From: Claveliimonas bilis
GTDB lineage: Bacteria > Bacillota > Clostridia > Lachnospirales > Lachnospiraceae
Assembly (NCBI RefSeq): GCF_020892095.1
Contig: NZ_AP024845.1
Span: 1,302,001-1,366,000, forward strand
DNA length: 64,000 nucleotides
Direction: 5' to 3'
The notes beneath the pieces are model-generated. The model was not told where the DNA came from and did no database searches. It saw nothing but the letters and a program-made list of their open reading frames with translations. Within the stretch, counting starts at the first letter, position 1. Every line of letters begins with the position of its first letter. This document shows positions 7,878-12,859 of this stretch, piece by piece. Made by a program: the position numbers and the translations under genes.

Positions 7878-8208
7878 TCAATTTTAACGACATTTTAGCG
7901 CCTTGTTTCCCTATGGATTTCTTCCTCTTTTTTATGAAAAATCTCTCCTTTTCTTTCCACTTTTTTGTCAAAATTATGTGTTTTTTCTTTTTTTCTTCCG
8001 CCTTTTCTATTTGAGATTTTTTTCAAGACTATTTTTGCACAATAATCTTCTTTTATTTTCTATTTTTTTGTATCTTTTTTACAACTCTTTTATATTTCAG
8101 CAATTTTGCCTTTGTATCATATCTACAACCACATTTCTCTTTTTTGTCTCATTTCGTCAGTTTTACTTTTTCTTTCCATCCTGGTTTTTCCAGATTTTCT
8201 TTTTCCAG
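7878..8208. other. Gene-free T-rich stretch
   Basis: About 330 bp between the atp promoter and the first small RNA promoter. The plus strand is mostly T with runs of T and TTTC. I see no open frame with a ribosome site, no strong hairpin and no repeat. Confidence 0.6.
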
Positions 8209-8282
8209 TTAAGATGTTTTTAATAAAATTTTGTTTTCTTTTAGATTCTGAAAACATTTTAGACACATTTTCCTCTTATAAT
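8209..8282 (+). promoter_or_regulatory. Promoter of small RNA copy A with paired TTAA boxes
   Basis: TTAA at 8209 and again at 8220 (11 bp apart), a GTTTTCTTTTA block at 8233, TAGACA at 8260 and TATAAT at 8277-8282. The distances from the -10 box (57, 44 and about 17 bp) are identical in the other two copies at 11.5 and 12.2 kb. The TTGACA-like box is only 11 bp from the -10, too close for a normal -35, so help from an activator is likely. Confidence 0.65.
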
Positions 8283-8288
8283 AAAACC

Positions 8289-8442
8289 AGATAGTTGAAA
8301 ACACATCAACTATCTCCCCCCTCATAAAGTAAATGCATCGAAGGGTTCGCCCTTCGATGCAAACTTTACTCTCATTCCTTTTAAATAACTATAACTACAG
8401 GCTCCCTTCACAGGTTATCCTATGAAGGGAGCTTCTGTTTTT
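8289..8442 (+). ncRNA. Small RNA, copy A of a three-member family
   Basis: No protein frame. From the 5' end: hairpin AGATAGTTGA/TCAACTATCT (8289-8315); an unpaired run CCCCCCTCAT; a two-part hairpin with outer TAAAGT/ACTTTA and inner GCATCGAAGGG-TTCG-CCCTTCGATGC (8325-8368); the conserved strand CTCTCATTCC then ATAACTATAAC; and a terminator (8401-8432) ending in a U-rich tail. The outer parts match copies B and C while the inner hairpin keeps its shape but changes sequence, as expected of a conserved structured RNA. Not recognised as a named family. Confidence 0.72.
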
Positions 8443-9037
8443 CTATTCCAATTTCTTTCAGCACTTCTGCAGAAATCTCCGGGAAAGGGATCACCGGTCC
8501 CGGATCTCCTTCATGATCTCCGATCATCTTTTCCATCCATATCATATGGTACCATCTGCCGAATTTAAAACCGCTGTTATGGAATTTTCCCACAAGTTTA
8601 TATCCCAAATGCTCATGGAAAGAAGCGCTGTTCTTTGTCAGATATTCGTCCTCTTCCTCCGGATATCCGATACAGGCATTGAGATTTCGAATATTTCTAA
8701 GTCTGGAAGCATCTTCCAATGCCTGATACAGCTTTCTTCCTACACCGTTCTTTCTCTGGCCCTCTTTTATGTAGATCGTTGTCTCTGCCGACCAGCTGTA
8801 GGCCTCTCTCCCCACAAAGTTTCCCGTGTAGGCATAGCCGATTATTTCACCGTCTTCTTCCGCTACAAGATAAGGGTGTTCCCGAAGAATATTTGTCATC
8901 CTTTGTCGAAATTCCTCCAGATCAGGCACTTCATATTCAAACGTAATAGCCGTTTTCTCTACATATGGCCTGTAAATCTCCAATATTTCCGGCGCATCTT
9001 CCAGGCATGCCATACGGACAATCACTGTATGTTTCAT
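8420..9037 (-). CDS. GNAT family N-acetyltransferase (phosphinothricin acetyltransferase-like)
   Basis: 205 residues starting MKHTVIVRMACLEDAPEILE. The GNAT fold is clear: EEDGEIIGYAYTGNF, the acetyl-CoA loop region GQRKNGVGRKLYQALE and the C-terminal HEHLGYKLVGKFHNSGFKFG, which resembles the Pat/Bar branch acting on small amino compounds. The last codons lie inside the terminator hairpin of small RNA copy A on the other strand. Just downstream of the ABC exporter genes in the same direction. Substrate unknown. Confidence 0.87.
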   Translation of the reverse strand: MKHTVIVRMACLEDAPEILEIYRPYVEKTAITFEYEVPDLEEFRQRMTNILREHPYLVAEEDGEIIGYAYTGNFVGREAYSWSAETTIYIKEGQRKNGVGRKLYQALEDASRLRNIRNLNACIGYPEEEDEYLTKNSASFHEHLGYKLVGKFHNSGFKFGRWYHMIWMEKMIGDHEGDPGPVIPFPEISAEVLKEIGIEKQKLPS

Positions 9038-9061
9038 TTTGATTCCTCCATCCGTTTGTAT

Positions 9062-9859
9062 TTAAAGCGGCAGATCCCTCTTTTCAAATCCTGCCACAGA
9101 AACTGTAAAAAGACAAAACGTCAACACAAATAATATCCCGACTCCAGCTAACGCCTCTGGTTCATATTGTACGATTTCTTCCGGCATAAACAAGCTTAAA
9201 GGCGTGAAATATTTTAGAAAATTCACCTTATCATTTACCTGGGAGAGCATCTGTATAAGAACAAAGATTAGGCCAAGTCCCGCCCCAATACCGACAGAAT
9301 ATTTCAGTTCATTAAACATACATGCAGTCAGAAAACCAAGGGCCGCCAAAAAAAACTCCAAAAATAGCAGTCCTGCATTTAAAACAAGAAATTCCGAAAC
9401 CTCAAGCTCTCCTTCGTACATCAAAGCGCTGAATACTATCACCAAAACAGATGCATACACAACCAGCAGCAGGATACCCAACAACAGAACAAACCCCTGT
9501 GTCACTAAGATTTTCTTCCGGCTGTAATGTGTGTTCAGCAAATAAGCCATTGAACCTTTATCTATATATTGCGCTGCCAGCTTATAACACATGATCATCG
9601 TATATATAAATGGAATGACGATCAGAATAAAACCGTACAGATAGTTAATAGTAAAATCCAGCAAAGTAATTCCCGGATTCTGCATTCCAAATGCCGCAAA
9701 AAGCTCCGGCATACTTTCTGCCATAGCATTGATCCCTTCTCCTAGTTCCGGATCATACATCGCCGTAATGACACCTGCATATATTGTGATAATACCCATA
9801 AACAAAAGCAACAGCCTGCCGTTCGACTTTATCCCCATTTTCAAAAGCGGCATACTCAT
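9062..9859 (-). CDS. ABC-2 type exporter permease
   Basis: 265 residues with about six membrane helices (for example GRLLLLFMGIITIYAGVI and FVLLLGILLLVVYASVLVIV) and no signal peptide. The start overlaps the stop of the ATPase gene by 4 bases, so the two are coupled. Probably pumps out a drug, lipid or peptide; the substrate cannot be read from the sequence. Confidence 0.85.
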   Translation of the reverse strand: MSMPLLKMGIKSNGRLLLLFMGIITIYAGVITAMYDPELGEGINAMAESMPELFAAFGMQNPGITLLDFTINYLYGFILIVIPFIYTMIMCYKLAAQYIDKGSMAYLLNTHYSRKKILVTQGFVLLLGILLLVVYASVLVIVFSALMYEGELEVSEFLVLNAGLLFLEFFLAALGFLTACMFNELKYSVGIGAGLGLIFVLIQMLSQVNDKVNFLKYFTPLSLFMPEEIVQYEPEALAGVGILFVLTFCLFTVSVAGFEKRDLPL

Positions 9860-10740
9860 ACCCGTTCCCCTCCGTAATACTGCAAAAATACTTCTTCCAA
9901 TGTCTGGTGTCTGGCATTGATATCCTCCACCTCATATCGATTCAATTCACGCAACAGCTCCATCGTATTTCCTTTCATTAAAAAACATACTGTATTGCAG
10001 CTCCTTTTACTGCCCGGATATTTTCCCTGGAACATTTTTGCACTTCGTTCATCCGAAAATGTAATCTCATAATGCTTGCTTCTTCCTGTCCGGATTTTCT
10101 CCATATTTTCGTCAGCGACTATTTTTCCATTCTTTATCATAATAATCCTGTCACATGTATTTTCAATTTCTTTAAAAATATGTGAGGACATCAGAATCGT
10201 TTTCCCTTTCCTTCTCTCTTCCTTTATCAGCTCCACAAACTTATTTTGCATAAGTGGATCAAGGCCGCTTGTAGGTTCATCGAGGATCAAAACCGGTGCA
10301 TCCTGCATGAACGCAACTACCAAAGCAATTTTTTGTTTCATTCCTTTTGACATTTTTTTCAATTTTACCTTAGGATCAAGCTCCAGATAATCGATCAGCT
10401 CGCCGGCATAAGTTAAATCTTTCATTTGCTTCATTTCCGCCATAAAACGAATAAAGTCCATCCCGGACATGTGATCCATAAAGGCAATTTCTCCCGGAAG
10501 ATACCCAATCCTTTTCTGAATATCAGCCGCCCGCCGAAAACAATCCATACCAAAAATTTCCGAACATCCTCTGTCAGGCTTAATAAACCCCATCAGATGT
10601 CTGATCGTCGTTGTTTTACCTGCTCCATTCGCCCCCAGAAACCCAACTGTCTCCCCTTCATTGGCAAAAAAAGAAATATTGAAAACACCTTTTTGATCCC
10701 CATAATCTTTTGTAAGATTCTTAATATCTATCACGCTCAT
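9856..10740 (-). CDS. ABC exporter ATP-binding protein
   Basis: 294 residues from ATG 10740 with AAGGAG upstream; the start overlaps the TetR stop as ATGA. Motifs in order: Walker A GANGAGKTT, Q-loop region, signature KMSKGMKQK (an MSKG variant of LSGGQ), Walker B APVLILDEPTSGLDP and a switch histidine in MSSHIFKE. The C-terminal 80 residues resemble the extension of CcmA/NatA-type exporters. Partner of the permease at 9062-9859. Confidence 0.92.
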   Translation of the reverse strand: MSVIDIKNLTKDYGDQKGVFNISFFANEGETVGFLGANGAGKTTTIRHLMGFIKPDRGCSEIFGMDCFRRAADIQKRIGYLPGEIAFMDHMSGMDFIRFMAEMKQMKDLTYAGELIDYLELDPKVKLKKMSKGMKQKIALVVAFMQDAPVLILDEPTSGLDPLMQNKFVELIKEERRKGKTILMSSHIFKEIENTCDRIIMIKNGKIVADENMEKIRTGRSKHYEITFSDERSAKMFQGKYPGSKRSCNTVCFLMKGNTMELLRELNRYEVEDINARHQTLEEVFLQYYGGERV

Positions 10741-11363
10741 AAATAATTCTCCTTGTAGCTTATTTTGCGCAGCATTTCTTTCCATTGATCAAATTCTCTT
10801 AGCATATCCTCAAAAGAAACCGGAAGATTCATTCGCCGCTTCTCCAAGAGATATCCTTCCGAGAGCCAGATTAGCATTTGATAGATCTTCTTTGGATCAA
10901 CAGTTTCTTTAAATGGTGTAAAATCAATCTTCTGAAAATACGTATCGAAACCGGCTGCCATCCTTTCACTTACATATCTGTTGGAAGCGTTCTCCACTCT
11001 ATCACATGCTGATAAAAAGCATTCAAAACAGAAATCTGTAATAAAGGGGTATTGTATCACAATATCCGCTTTCACCTTTGCGCCATATTCCAAAAGCTGA
11101 AAGAAATCTGTTATTCCGGAAAATTCCTTTTCGTCTATCGCCTTCTGCATTAAACCTTCACAAAATTCACATAAGTATAAATAGAACTTCTCTTTGTTTT
11201 TGAAATAATAAAATAGCAATCCCTTAGATATCCCGGCTTTATGAGCTATATCCTCTGTATTTGCATTTTTATATCCGCATTTCCCAAATAATTCCAATCC
11301 GGCATTGATAATTTTCAATTGCTTTTCTTCTGGAAGCTCTGAAAATTTTCCGTAGTTATCCAT
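10737..11363 (-). CDS. TetR family repressor, first gene of the ABC exporter operon
   Basis: 208 residues. The N-terminal helix-turn-helix is typical (ANTEDIAHKAGISKGLLFYY, then FKNKEKFYLYL), followed by a helical ligand-binding part. It leads the operon, so it probably represses its own promoter and the downstream ATPase and permease until a ligand binds. Confidence 0.9.
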   Translation of the reverse strand: MDNYGKFSELPEEKQLKIINAGLELFGKCGYKNANTEDIAHKAGISKGLLFYYFKNKEKFYLYLCEFCEGLMQKAIDEKEFSGITDFFQLLEYGAKVKADIVIQYPFITDFCFECFLSACDRVENASNRYVSERMAAGFDTYFQKIDFTPFKETVDPKKIYQMLIWLSEGYLLEKRRMNLPVSFEDMLREFDQWKEMLRKISYKENYL

Positions 11364-11400
11364 ACTTCTGCTCCTTTACCGGCCATATTTTCTTTATATC

Positions 11401-11442
11401 GTCAACTCATTTTTATTGTAATTCATTGACTATTTTTTTCAA
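11401..11442 (-). promoter_or_regulatory. Promoter and likely operator of the TetR/ABC operon
   Basis: Minus strand TTGAAA (11442-11437), 16 bases, TACAAT (11420-11415). The half-sites GTCAA (11401-11405) and TTGAC (11426-11430) form an inverted pair lying over and just after the -10 box, a reasonable place for repressor binding. GTCAA/TTGAC half-sites also occur in the operator of the other TetR gene at 17.7 kb. Confidence 0.55.
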
Positions 11443-11511
11443 CCCCTCCTGTCACCTCTTTATAGTCATCTTTCCAAATATTCCATGAGATAAGCAGCAG
11501 TTTAGGAAATC

Positions 11512-11585
11512 TTAAACCCGGCTTAAGAATATTTCGTTTTCTTTTATTTTCTCCTCATACTTTTGACATATTTTCCCTTTATAAT
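11512..11585 (+). promoter_or_regulatory. Promoter of small RNA copy B with paired TTAA boxes
   Basis: TTAA at 11512 and 11523 (11 bp apart), GTTTTCTTTTA at 11536, TTGACA at 11563 and TATAAT at 11580-11585. Spacing to the -10 box is identical to copies A and C. Confidence 0.68.
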
Positions 11586-11591
11586 AAGAGT

Positions 11592-11750
11592 CAGATAGTT
11601 GAAGAACACATCAACTATCTCCCCCTCATAAAGTAACGCGTCAGGATCCGCAATCTCCCGACGCCATACTTTACTCTCTCATTCCTTTAGATAACTATAA
11701 CGACAACGAAAACCCACCGGCCGAAAGGTCAGTGGGTTTTCGCTGTCTGT
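11592..11750 (+). ncRNA. Small RNA, copy B of a three-member family
   Basis: Same plan as copy A: 5' hairpin AGATAGTTGA/TCAACTATCT (11593-11620), single-stranded CCCCCTCA, outer stem TAAAGT/ACTTTA with an inner GCGTC/GACGC hairpin (11629-11673), conserved CTCTCATTCCTTTAG and ATAACTATAAC, then a terminator-like hairpin CGAAAACCCAC/GTGGGTTTTCG (11707-11742). The 3' strand AACTAT could also pair with ATAGTT of the 5' hairpin, allowing two folds. Confidence 0.74.
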
Positions 11751-11792
11751 ATCCCATTTCTTTTTATATTAACATAATTTTTCTATTTTTAG

Positions 11793-11821
11793 TTGTCATA
11801 ATCTATTTCGTCTGATAAAAT
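11793..11821 (+). promoter_or_regulatory. Probable promoter of the holin-like toxin
   Basis: TTGTCA (11793-11798), 17 bases, TAAAAT (11816-11821). A second possible -10 box, CATAAT at 11840-11845, sits 11 bp before the GGGAACC repeat, the same distance as in the antisense promoter. Which one is used is not clear. Confidence 0.45.
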
Positions 11822-11913
11822 AGGATCATATAAACTCTACATAATGTATTTACCCAGGGAACCGATGGGGCGATATGTAGCCACCTACTCATAAGAGAAA
11901 GGGGCTGGTGCTT

Positions 11914-12009
11914 ATGTACGTAACATACAGCGATTTATTTACTTTTGTTATTATGCTGGTTGCTGTTATCACCTTTGTTATGACCGTCAATAAGCATAAC
12001 AAAAAATAA
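11914..12009 (+). CDS. Holin-like type I toxin peptide
   Basis: 31 residues: MYVTYSDLFTFVIMLVAVIT followed by FVMTVNKHNKK, one membrane helix and a Lys/His-rich tail. This matches the small putative holin-like toxin (Hol_Tox) family of Firmicutes. AAAGGGG lies 9 bases before ATG 11914; GTG 11908 is an alternative start adding two residues. The stop lies inside a bidirectional terminator. Such peptides insert into the cell's own membrane when not silenced by the antisense RNA. Confidence 0.78.
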   Translation: MYVTYSDLFTFVIMLVAVITFVMTVNKHNKK

Positions 12010-12041
12010 CGCCCTCACCCGGAAAAGTGTAGCGTTATTTT
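12003..12041. terminator. Bidirectional terminator shared by toxin and antitoxin RNAs
   Basis: AAAATAACGC (12003-12012) pairs perfectly with GCGTTATTTT (12032-12041), leaving a T run on each strand. Convergent toxin and antitoxin RNAs ending at one shared hairpin is the plan of the par/fst and related type I loci. Confidence 0.8.
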
Positions 12042-12096
12042 ATGAAACATAATTACCGAGGTGGCTAGATTTCAGCTAGCTATCGGTTCCCTTGTT
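12003..12096 (-). ncRNA. Antisense antitoxin RNA of the holin-like toxin locus
   Basis: From the strong minus-strand promoter at 12130-12103, transcription should begin near 12096 and end at the shared hairpin, giving an RNA of about 94 bases that overlaps the 3' end of the toxin message. It starts with GGGAACCGAT, the same motif as the toxin RNA. No open frame. Role inferred from position. Confidence 0.6.
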
Positions 12097-12102
12097 AAGT
12101 GT

Positions 12103-12130
12103 ATTATATCAAAAATAATCAAAATGTCAA
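12103..12130 (-). promoter_or_regulatory. Promoter of the antitoxin RNA
   Basis: Consensus TTGACA (12130-12125), 16 bases, consensus TATAAT (12108-12103). Stronger than the toxin promoter, as expected when the unstable antisense RNA must be in excess. Confidence 0.8.
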
Positions 12131-12204
12131 CCACTCAAAAAGAATCCCAAGGATGAGTCACACAAGACTTCCTTTTTCACCGAAAATACAAAATCAATAC
12201 TTTC

Positions 12205-12278
12205 TTAATTCGGAGTTAAGAAATTTTCGTTTTCTTTTAGGATTCTATCATACTTTTGACACATTTATTCTTTATACT
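12205..12278 (+). promoter_or_regulatory. Promoter of small RNA copy C with paired TTAA boxes
   Basis: TTAA at 12205 and 12216 (11 bp apart), GTTTTCTTTTA at 12229, TTGACA at 12256 and TATACT at 12273-12278, all at the same distances as in copies A and B. Confidence 0.68.
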
Positions 12279-12284
12279 ATGAAT

Positions 12285-12435
12285 CAGATAGTTGATAACA
12301 ACTATCTTTCCCCCTCACAAAGTAACGCGCCAGACTTTGCAACTTCTGGCGTCACACTTTACTCTCATTCCTTTAGATAACTATAACAACAACGAAACCC
12401 GTTAGCCTTTAAGGTTAACGGGTTTTCGCTGTCTG
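12285..12435 (+). ncRNA. Small RNA, copy C of a three-member family
   Basis: 5' hairpin AGATAGTTG/CAACTATCT with a short ATAA loop (12286-12307), then TTCCCCCTCA, outer AAAGT/ACTTT and inner CGCCAGA/TCTGGCG hairpin (12319-12360), the conserved CTCTCATTCCTTTAG and ATAACTATAAC segment, and a terminator-like hairpin at 12393-12428. Closest to copy B; the two flank the toxin locus and may come from a local duplication. Confidence 0.74.
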
Positions 12436-12661
12436 CTCCTTTTCTTACCAGAGAGTTCCAATAATCACTACCGAATGCAGAACTTGCATCCGTAAAGGTG
12501 TACCGCATCAGCAAGGTCTGACAATCTGAGAATTGCAAATTCACGGTCAATCACAACACTTGGAGATCCCGTTGTCAAATGTTGGTCCAGATAACAGGCC
12601 TTTATAACTCCGGATCAATCTGGGCTTTCATTTCTTTTGTTTGTCCACTGGCCAGATCTAC
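12436..12661. other. Short stretch without recognisable features
   Basis: Between small RNA copy C and the AraC remnant. Frames are open only by chance, and no ribosome site, hairpin or promoter stands out. It may contain further decayed sequence of the AraC gene. Confidence 0.5.
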
Positions 12662-12859
12662 AAACTGATCCTGGACATCTTCCATATGGAACTGCGCATA
12701 GAACGGGCAAAAATCCTGCTTTCATCGACAAAATATCAAGTTCAGGAAATTGCTGAAAAAATCGGAATAGAAAAACCAAACAACTTCCGGCAGGCATTCA
12801 AACACGCAACCGGAATGTCCCCCTCGCAGTTTCGCCGAAAAACACCGGAACATTTATAA
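12662..12859 (+). pseudogene. AraC-family regulator remnant (C-terminal DNA-binding half only)
   Basis: The frame keeps about 65 residues of an AraC-type DNA-binding domain: RIERAKILLSSTKYQVQEIA, then EKIGIEKPNNFRQAFKHATG and MSPSQFRRK. These are the second helix-turn-helix and the linker helix. The first helix-turn-helix and the sensor domain are missing and no ribosome site precedes the fragment, so it is read as a decayed gene. Confidence 0.7.

Follow-up and report, generated by a model that had tools for sequence, protein, structure and literature searches.

The closest described systems are multicopy or two-component-driven small RNAs (sRNAs) that act on ribosome-binding sites or through C-rich stretches. 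The streptococcal csRNAs, which depend on CiaR, are reported to occur as several similar copies per genome, to have promoters with TTTAAG-N5-TTTAAG direct repeats, to consist of two stem-loops plus an unpaired anti-Shine-Dalgarno stretch, and to count transporters among their targets (PMC3091779, PMC8186281). The Listeria RNAs LhrC1-5 are likewise multicopy, need the two-component system LisRK, and impede translation of a cell-wall-associated protein through redundant CU-rich sites (PMC4132741), while RoxS/RsaE, a ResD/SrrA-controlled RNA of Bacillus and Staphylococcus, is likewise two-component-driven and acts via C-rich regions (PMC4409812). Here we describe a stretch of 64,000 nucleotides of the Claveliimonas bilis chromosome (Lachnospiraceae; contig NZ_AP024845.1, positions 1,302,001 to 1,366,000; ‘the window’), whose + strand carries three copies of one structured RNA gene, a fourth lying elsewhere in the 3.04-Mb genome. 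We propose that the gene probably encodes a multicopy RNA that a regulator switches on and that acts in trans by pairing to ribosome-binding sites, above all those of secondary transporters. Its action would come closest to that of csRNAs and LhrC, and its probable working mode (multicopy, regulator-driven, anti-Shine-Dalgarno) is already known, although the family itself is new; the likeness to csRNAs, which belong to another class of bacteria, is one of description, not of sequence comparison.

The copies, delineated by sequence elements and folding, are about 145-150 nt long. Copy 1 (8288-8437, + strand) comprises a 5' hairpin (8289-8315), a C-rich site (8316-8325), a stem from 8325 with a variable inner hairpin, the pairing site CTCTCATTCC (8369-8378), the stretch ATAACTATAAC (8385-8395) and a terminator-like hairpin (8398-8437). 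Copy 2 (11592-11742, +) has its C-rich site at 11621-11629, a pairing site at 11676-11685 that extends to CTCTCTCATTCC, and a terminator-like hairpin at 11707-11742; in copy 3 (12285-12430, +) these parts lie at 12310-12317, 12362-12371 and 12393-12428, respectively. Copy 4 lies outside the window on the - strand (G000:C1:1518703-1518811). Common to copies 1-3 are the AGATAGTTGA hairpin, the C-rich run, a TAAAGT/ACTTTA stem (beginning CAAAGT in copy 3), CTCTCATTCC, ATAACTATAAC and the 3' hairpin, with AGATAGTTGA occurring five times in the window against 0.07 expected. All three fold far better than chance (z = -10.8, -7.4 and -7.6 for copies 1-3, against 200 dinucleotide shuffles each, none of which folded equally well), and no open reading frame (ORF) of at least 40 amino acids is common to them. 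The 3' hairpins were not listed by a simple terminator scan of the + strand, and are termed terminator-like because the T run sits inside the stem; the gene as a whole is presumably transcribed.

Comparison across relatives supports the paired structure. In an alignment of 23 rows from the genus, 92.9% of 451 cells pair, compared with at most 45% when partners are slid, and covariation exceeds that of all 500 shuffles, figures favored by the fact that the structure was derived from these same rows. A wider alignment, fitted to the covariance model (R1; 107 positions, 20 pairs), holds 142 matches (138 distinct) from 100 of 116 named stretches; here 98.1% pair against at most 38% when slid, 15 of the 20 pairs are altered on both sides, and 41 further pair types occur against a shuffled mean of 18.8. 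The inner helix is the most variable part, with its pairing kept. Conversely, the 35 copies that the model found in other genera carry CTCTCATTCC unchanged in 33 cases and CCCCTCA in 32, counts that retain some bias since the model contains those unpaired stretches. Because the strands are near-invariant while the inner helix varies but still pairs, the information seems to reside in the exposed strands, which the hairpins would keep open. A preliminary description of the window had seen here a three-copy family of structured small RNAs with shared elements and a 3' hairpin in each copy: folding, alignment and covariation support the structured family, the elements all lie where it placed them, the 3' hairpins are present in all three copies, and the count of three holds for the window and rises to four for the genome. 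Its remark that the inner hairpins differ yet pair was right, and is strengthened by the relatives.

A DNA search matched all 11 genomes examined from the window's genus, with 31 matches, including three bare 3' ends (L031, L034, L035) and, as the sole match in genome G009, a fragment at the end of a contig. Run over 299 family genomes, model R1 matched 49 at E<=0.01, with 30 reaching at least 66 bits (two being the window's species); the remaining 19 score about 31-44 bits and are not counted as sure. A pattern scan of named genomes yielded at least 116 stretches. Among the matches listed are Mediterraneibacter, Dorea, Faecalicatena, Extibacter, Claveliimonas, Mordavella, Hespellia, Tyzzerella, Faecalimonas, Muricomes, Sellimonas and others, as well as metagenome-assembled genomes labelled only Lachnospiraceae, Ruminococcus, Eubacteriales, Firmicutes or bacterium. 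The plasmids searched gave no match, the phage search gave two, in unannotated faecal records, and viral contigs gave two, both with whole copies and no bare tails. Judged by these matches, the RNA gene is multicopy in many gut Lachnospiraceae.

Each copy is preceded by a conserved promoter-like region. A distal 11-bp direct repeat, a putative response-regulator site, lies on the + strand at 8208-8224 in copy 1 (GTTAAGATGTTTTTAAT), 11511-11527 in copy 2 (CTTAAACCCGGCTTAAG) and 12204-12220 in copy 3 (CTTAATTCGGAGTTAAG), followed by a proximal repeat with a -10 element: ACATTTTAGACACATTT with TATAAT (8277-8282) at 8251-8282, CATACTTTTGACATATTT with TATAAT (11580-11585) at 11556-11585, and CATACTTTTGACACATTT with TATACT (12273-12278) at 12249-12278, respectively. 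TTGACA (11563-11568 in copy 2, 12256-12261 in copy 3) is 11 bp from the -10, compared with the usual spacing of about 17 bp, and a generic promoter scan found no promoter ending at the -10s of copies 1-3. The earlier claim that each copy has its own promoter is hence borne out for the -10, whereas a conserved direct repeat occupies the position expected of a -35. When 168 of 169 promoters were aligned on their best fit to the proximal repeat, a fit that inflates the proximal part and not the distal boxes, the logo read TTWAK-N6-TTWAK, TTTC..TTTCTTTTAK, ACATACTTTRGACAYATTT (ACATA-N6-ACAYA), about 6 nt, and the -10; the RNA starts 17-18 nt past the proximal repeat in 160 of 168. Within the distal box TTWAK, the third letter is A in 64-67% and the last is G in 54% of the 168. 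Direct repeats with an 11-bp phase replacing the -35 are a mark of OmpR/PhoB-type activation, and in class II OmpR-type promoters repeats phased by 10-11 bp stand for the -35 and end about 10 bp before the -10. The pattern seen here, ACATA-N6-ACAYA with 11 bp from TTGACA to the -10, is consistent with that class. The csRNA box resembles the distal box, which has the same 11-bp phase but is looser in its letters; unlike in csRNAs, the box is far upstream, a second repeat covers the -35, and the RNA bears an extra 5' hairpin.

In its own genome, the proximal pattern plus -10 is found at the four copies, at one further intergenic site (G000:C1:732890-732919, locus L206) and at one weak match with three mismatches (L208). 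The L206 region (1430-1720; G000:C1:732819-733109) shows a similar distal and proximal layout and -10 before a different transcript, with a GGAGCAGC..GCTGCTCC hairpin and T run; the RNA model found nothing above 8.8 bits there, and L206 is perhaps another RNA of the same regulon. The strict distal pattern has two hits outside the copies, both within genes, and TTAAG-N6-TTAAG gives six hits against 16 for a reversed control pattern; the distal box alone is therefore uninformative.

The second line of evidence concerns targets. The genome holds 10 occurrences of the decamer GGAATGAGAG, which complements the conserved strand. Four are antisense of the copies, and two of the other six fall at the ribosome-binding sites of DASS/CitMHS-like transporters. 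One is AAAAGGAATGAGAGGAGAATTGATATG, ahead of a 487-amino-acid transporter (Na_sulph_symp, PF00939) that scores below the NCBIfam DASS cut-off; the other is AAGGAGGAATGAGAGATG, ahead of a 422-amino-acid transporter (CitMHS, PF03600) that exceeds it. Their predicted duplex energies are -20.7 and -20.4 kcal/mol, with none of 442 sampled genes as low, a rank that is partly circular as both were picked by exact match. A stronger test than energy is conservation. Among ten orthologous leaders of the first transporter (at least 82% identity), GGAATGAGAG is exact in five, two of them from the window's species, and differs by one base in four, while one leader, from a different genus, retains nine letters ahead of a distinct AAGGAG. 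Across 14 genomes (its own and 13 chosen carriers, nine of the genus and four of other genera) there are 131 GGAATGAGAG sites. After 33 were set aside by place as antisense of copies or 3' ends, 98 remain: 16 at ATG ribosome-binding sites, two before other start codons, seven opposite genes, 14 elsewhere and 59 inside genes. The enrichment at ribosome-binding sites is modest (16/98 vs 23/364 for permuted decamers, p = 0.003, the control being 464 kb of its own genome only). At eight of the 16 the gene that follows encodes a DASS-, SSF- or SNF-type transporter, a theme noticed post hoc and without a control, and a Na+/H+ antiporter (GTG start) and a third SSF site lie just outside the definition; the other genes include those for pyruvate kinase, an amidohydrolase, a lamin-tail-domain protein and an aminotransferase. 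As a target finder, the C-rich site gave 18 sites against eight for a reversed control.

Together, these features suggest the following mechanism. An OmpR/PhoB-type response regulator would bind the 11-bp direct repeats, the distal one at about -80 to -65 and the proximal one across the -35 region, the best candidate activator being a VanR-like regulator encoded with a sensor kinase near copy 4. The RNA would fold into a 5' hairpin, a variable central hairpin and the terminator-like hairpin, which hold open two near-invariant C/U-rich single strands, CCCCCCUCAU and CUCUCAUUCCUUU; the variable hairpin may serve as a spacer in which pairing matters and sequence does not. The second strand, perhaps also the first, would pair with purine-rich ribosome-binding sites of target messages, with the sRNA stretch CUCUCAUUCC predicted to pair with the target leader. 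Targets would chiefly be secondary transporters, sodium-coupled or related to these, among them the two DASS-type ones of this genome, whose translation block we infer from the complementarity and its conservation. Several copies could provide dosage as well as separate tuning. As in csRNAs, the strand is unpaired in the folds and complementary to ribosome-binding sites; in contrast to them, the C-rich site reads as anti-Shine-Dalgarno then CAU, the reverse of the Shine-Dalgarno-AUG order of an initiation region. LhrC differs in having its UCCC sites in loops and a single strand (PMC4132741), and no Rfam match to LhrC was given by the window, the copies or the copy-bearing loci searched; LhrC depends on a known two-component system, whereas the regulator here is a candidate. 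We infer transcription, the identity of the activator and the direction of regulation from sequence.

Several observations weigh against this reading, in addition to the circular energy rank, the narrow decamer control and the post hoc transporter theme given above. In the genus alignment, further pair types number 11 against 11.2 in shuffles, with no excess. The 59 of 98 sites that fall inside genes are a majority, and when the 16 ribosome-binding-site hits are collapsed to 11 gene families (11/93), the enrichment falls to p = 0.06. Nine of the ten first-transporter leaders come from one genus, and in two of the four leaders with one base changed (G007 and G009) the matching stretch is the Shine-Dalgarno sequence itself, so its conservation there needs no sRNA. 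The CitMHS-type site is exact solely in the window's species (G000, G001); two of five orthologues in other carrier genera keep AAGGAATG. The orthologue of G018, a genome where no RNA was found, lacks it. Orthologues of the two transporters were found in only one and five of 28 carrier genomes of other genera, and targets there must therefore differ. One of 15 non-self C-rich matches is a plausible ribosome-binding site, before an SSF transporter. Finally, the link to the neighboring regulator, to which we now turn, is supported by only one of four promoter matrices.

Near copy 4 lie genes for an OmpR-type response regulator (PF00072 and PF00486) and a histidine kinase. In this locus (L199, 11305-18846), one side of the copy holds a citrate synthase and a lipase-like hydrolase, and the other tRNAs, a Spo0A_C-only protein, a lysozyme-like protein, the VanR-like regulator and the kinase; the citrate synthase, lipase-like and lysozyme-like names are provisional readings of the sequences. 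The lysozyme-like neighbor recurs in 41 of 121 loci, some of which are possibly the same contig from two collections. The regulator resembles VanR (288.6 bits, below the cut-off of 350), and proteins at least 75% identical to it are encoded near copies in 14 loci. Upstream regions of the regulator were scored in 13 of these loci and in the window's genome against 443 background regions. With a two-box matrix built from the RNA promoters (typical sequence TTCATAATATCTTAAGAATTTCC), at most five of 443 background regions score as high in nine of the 14 loci, which are orthologues and hence not independent, with 17-45 in four, among them the window's genome at 22, and 106 in one. The one-box and full distal matrices gave mixed ranks (51 and 77 of 443 in its own genome), and the proximal matrix, over 14 regions, none better than 24/443. 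That the VanR-like regulator drives both the RNA copies and itself is a lead suggested by these sequences, not a proof.

It is possible, if somewhat unlikely, that the promoter answers instead to PhoP or another OmpR-type regulator, with the remaining mechanism unchanged. The pst and pstS2-ppk leaders of the same genome, read by eye, carry TTTWACA repeats, phased by 11 bp in the second, that are similar in kind to the proximal repeat, and upstream of the neighboring regulator itself this genome shows a modest match, with none to the proximal repeat. Against this, the Pho-type repeats were observed without TTWAG boxes, while the two-box element stands upstream of the neighboring regulator at rank 5 of 443 or better in nine of 14 loci. 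The Pho regulon, with TTWAG boxes lacking from both leaders, is accordingly retained solely as a rival to the VanR-like candidate.

An improbable alternative to pairing with messages is that the RNA titrates a protein, the repeated CUCAU in the two exposed strands sequestering an RNA-binding regulator and copy number setting the capacity. CUCAU is indeed present in both conserved strands, and a multicopy RNA whose strands stay constant while the inner stem varies would suit such a role. Each RNA, however, carries only two CUCAU motifs, we know of no CUCAU binder, and titration leaves the complementary transporter leader unexplained.

Comparison with described families bears on whether the RNA is a distant branch of RoxS/RsaE, which we consider very unlikely. 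Searched against Rfam 15 at gathering scores, the whole window returned one tRNA only and no family at the copies, and the copy-bearing loci L002, L073, L113 and L041 returned tRNAs only at threshold. The preliminary description had not recognised the family and named it its best candidate for an undescribed system, suggesting alignment, a covariance model and searches of Rfam and Lachnospiraceae genomes as a check. That view has stood, as these yielded relatives in 30 of 299 genomes at 66 bits or more and no Rfam family at threshold. Below threshold, RsaE/RoxS (RF01820; cut-off 79) scores 24.3 bits on copy 1, 19 bits on copy 3 and 31.2 bits on L112; it gives the highest full-model bit score for these three, with weak full-length matches, and UCUCAUUCCUUU aligns to the RsaE stretch UCCCAUCCCCUUU. 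RsaJ has a lower E-value on copy 1, but over its 3' hairpin only. The two RNAs would share, besides similar seed letters, an upstream two-component regulator and C-rich anti-Shine-Dalgarno regions (PMC4409812). Nevertheless, scores of 19-31 bits are far below the cut-off, no RsaE match was found in L023 and L041 at E<=0.1, and none in 20 loci, L041 included, at E<=10, making homology unlikely. A cis-regulatory leader or riboswitch was also considered and rejected, as neighboring genes are varied and often opposite and the RNA has its own 3' hairpin. A literature search of titles and the starts of abstracts did not find the RNA named. One survey predicts 3161 intergenic structured RNAs in human microbiomes (PMC8040213), and the family may be among its predictions; in the main text of PMC11109978, the names Lachnospiraceae, Dorea, Ruminococcus, Blautia and Roseburia do not occur. 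Within the reach of Rfam 15 and these literature searches, the family appears undescribed.

Judging from gene arrangement, the 3' end of the RNA gene is also an integration site of small integrative elements. A gene of one clustered tyrosine-recombinase family lies just downstream of the RNA in 11 of the 121 loci. L201 holds a second copy of the 3' end, spanning CTCATTCC to the 3' hairpin, at a distance of 6.5 kb (ends 1113 and 7655), and between the ends lie an integrase (PF00589, a full tyrosine integrase) and a replication protein; the integrase thus stands beside a split RNA gene whose 3' end recurs at the far side, the arrangement of an attachment (att) site. Paired 3' ends also occur 7.9 kb apart in L200 (1557 and 9471) and 1.9 kb apart in L169 (457-544 and 2406-2506), each with truncated integrase genes. 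The duplicated 3' ends imply that the element carries a replacement 3' half with most or all of the second pairing site. This resembles tRNA and tmRNA integration sites, where an incoming element is reported to supply the split gene with a new 3' end while the displaced one comes to lie at the element's far side (PMC4383910), although the target here is a putative regulatory sRNA gene. That the copies are spread by or serve mobile elements, with no regulatory role of their own, is extremely unlikely despite the integrase cluster beside 11 of 121 loci and the duplicated ends flanking elements, since that cluster, the only integrase group looked for, is absent from the other 110 loci, conservation is also strong in the promoter and 5' half, parts that are not element-borne, and all 11 genomes examined from the genus match.

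Other features neighbor the copies. Between copies 2 and 3, a hydrophobic ORF of 31 amino acids (11914-12009, +) matches Hol_Tox (PF16935) at 20.4 bits, below the cut-off of 23.3, and a promoter-like site on the - strand (12130-12103), a perfect TTGACA-16-TATAAT, faces it; the pair looks like a type I toxin-antitoxin system. Just downstream of copy 3, at 12641-12859, lies an ORF of 72 amino acids, which we take to be a C-terminal fragment of an AraC-type regulator. In genome G007, a Clostridiales-1 RNA (RF01699, 73.6 bits; L026, 799-952) lies about 600 bp upstream of a copy.

A tentative and, taken whole, doubtful extension of the proposed mechanism would be a core circuit of Lachnospiraceae, in which a VanRS-like system, upon disturbance of the envelope or ion gradient, drives RNA copies that silence sodium-coupled transporters (DASS, SSF, SNF, Na+/H+ antiporter), and in which the RNA gene is also a docking site where the replacement 3' halves of elements, with pairing site and terminator, could retune the regulator. 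Lachnospiraceae are dominant anaerobes of the gut, and to our knowledge hardly any trans-acting RNA is known in them. A multicopy regulatory RNA present in many genera of this family and unmatched in Rfam would give a handle on gene regulation in a major gut group; its candidate targets and regulator can be put to the test, and a covariance model is at hand. Moreover, integration at its 3' end accounts for the position of a set of mobile elements in these genomes and prompts one to ask whether the elements swap the targeting half of a host regulator.

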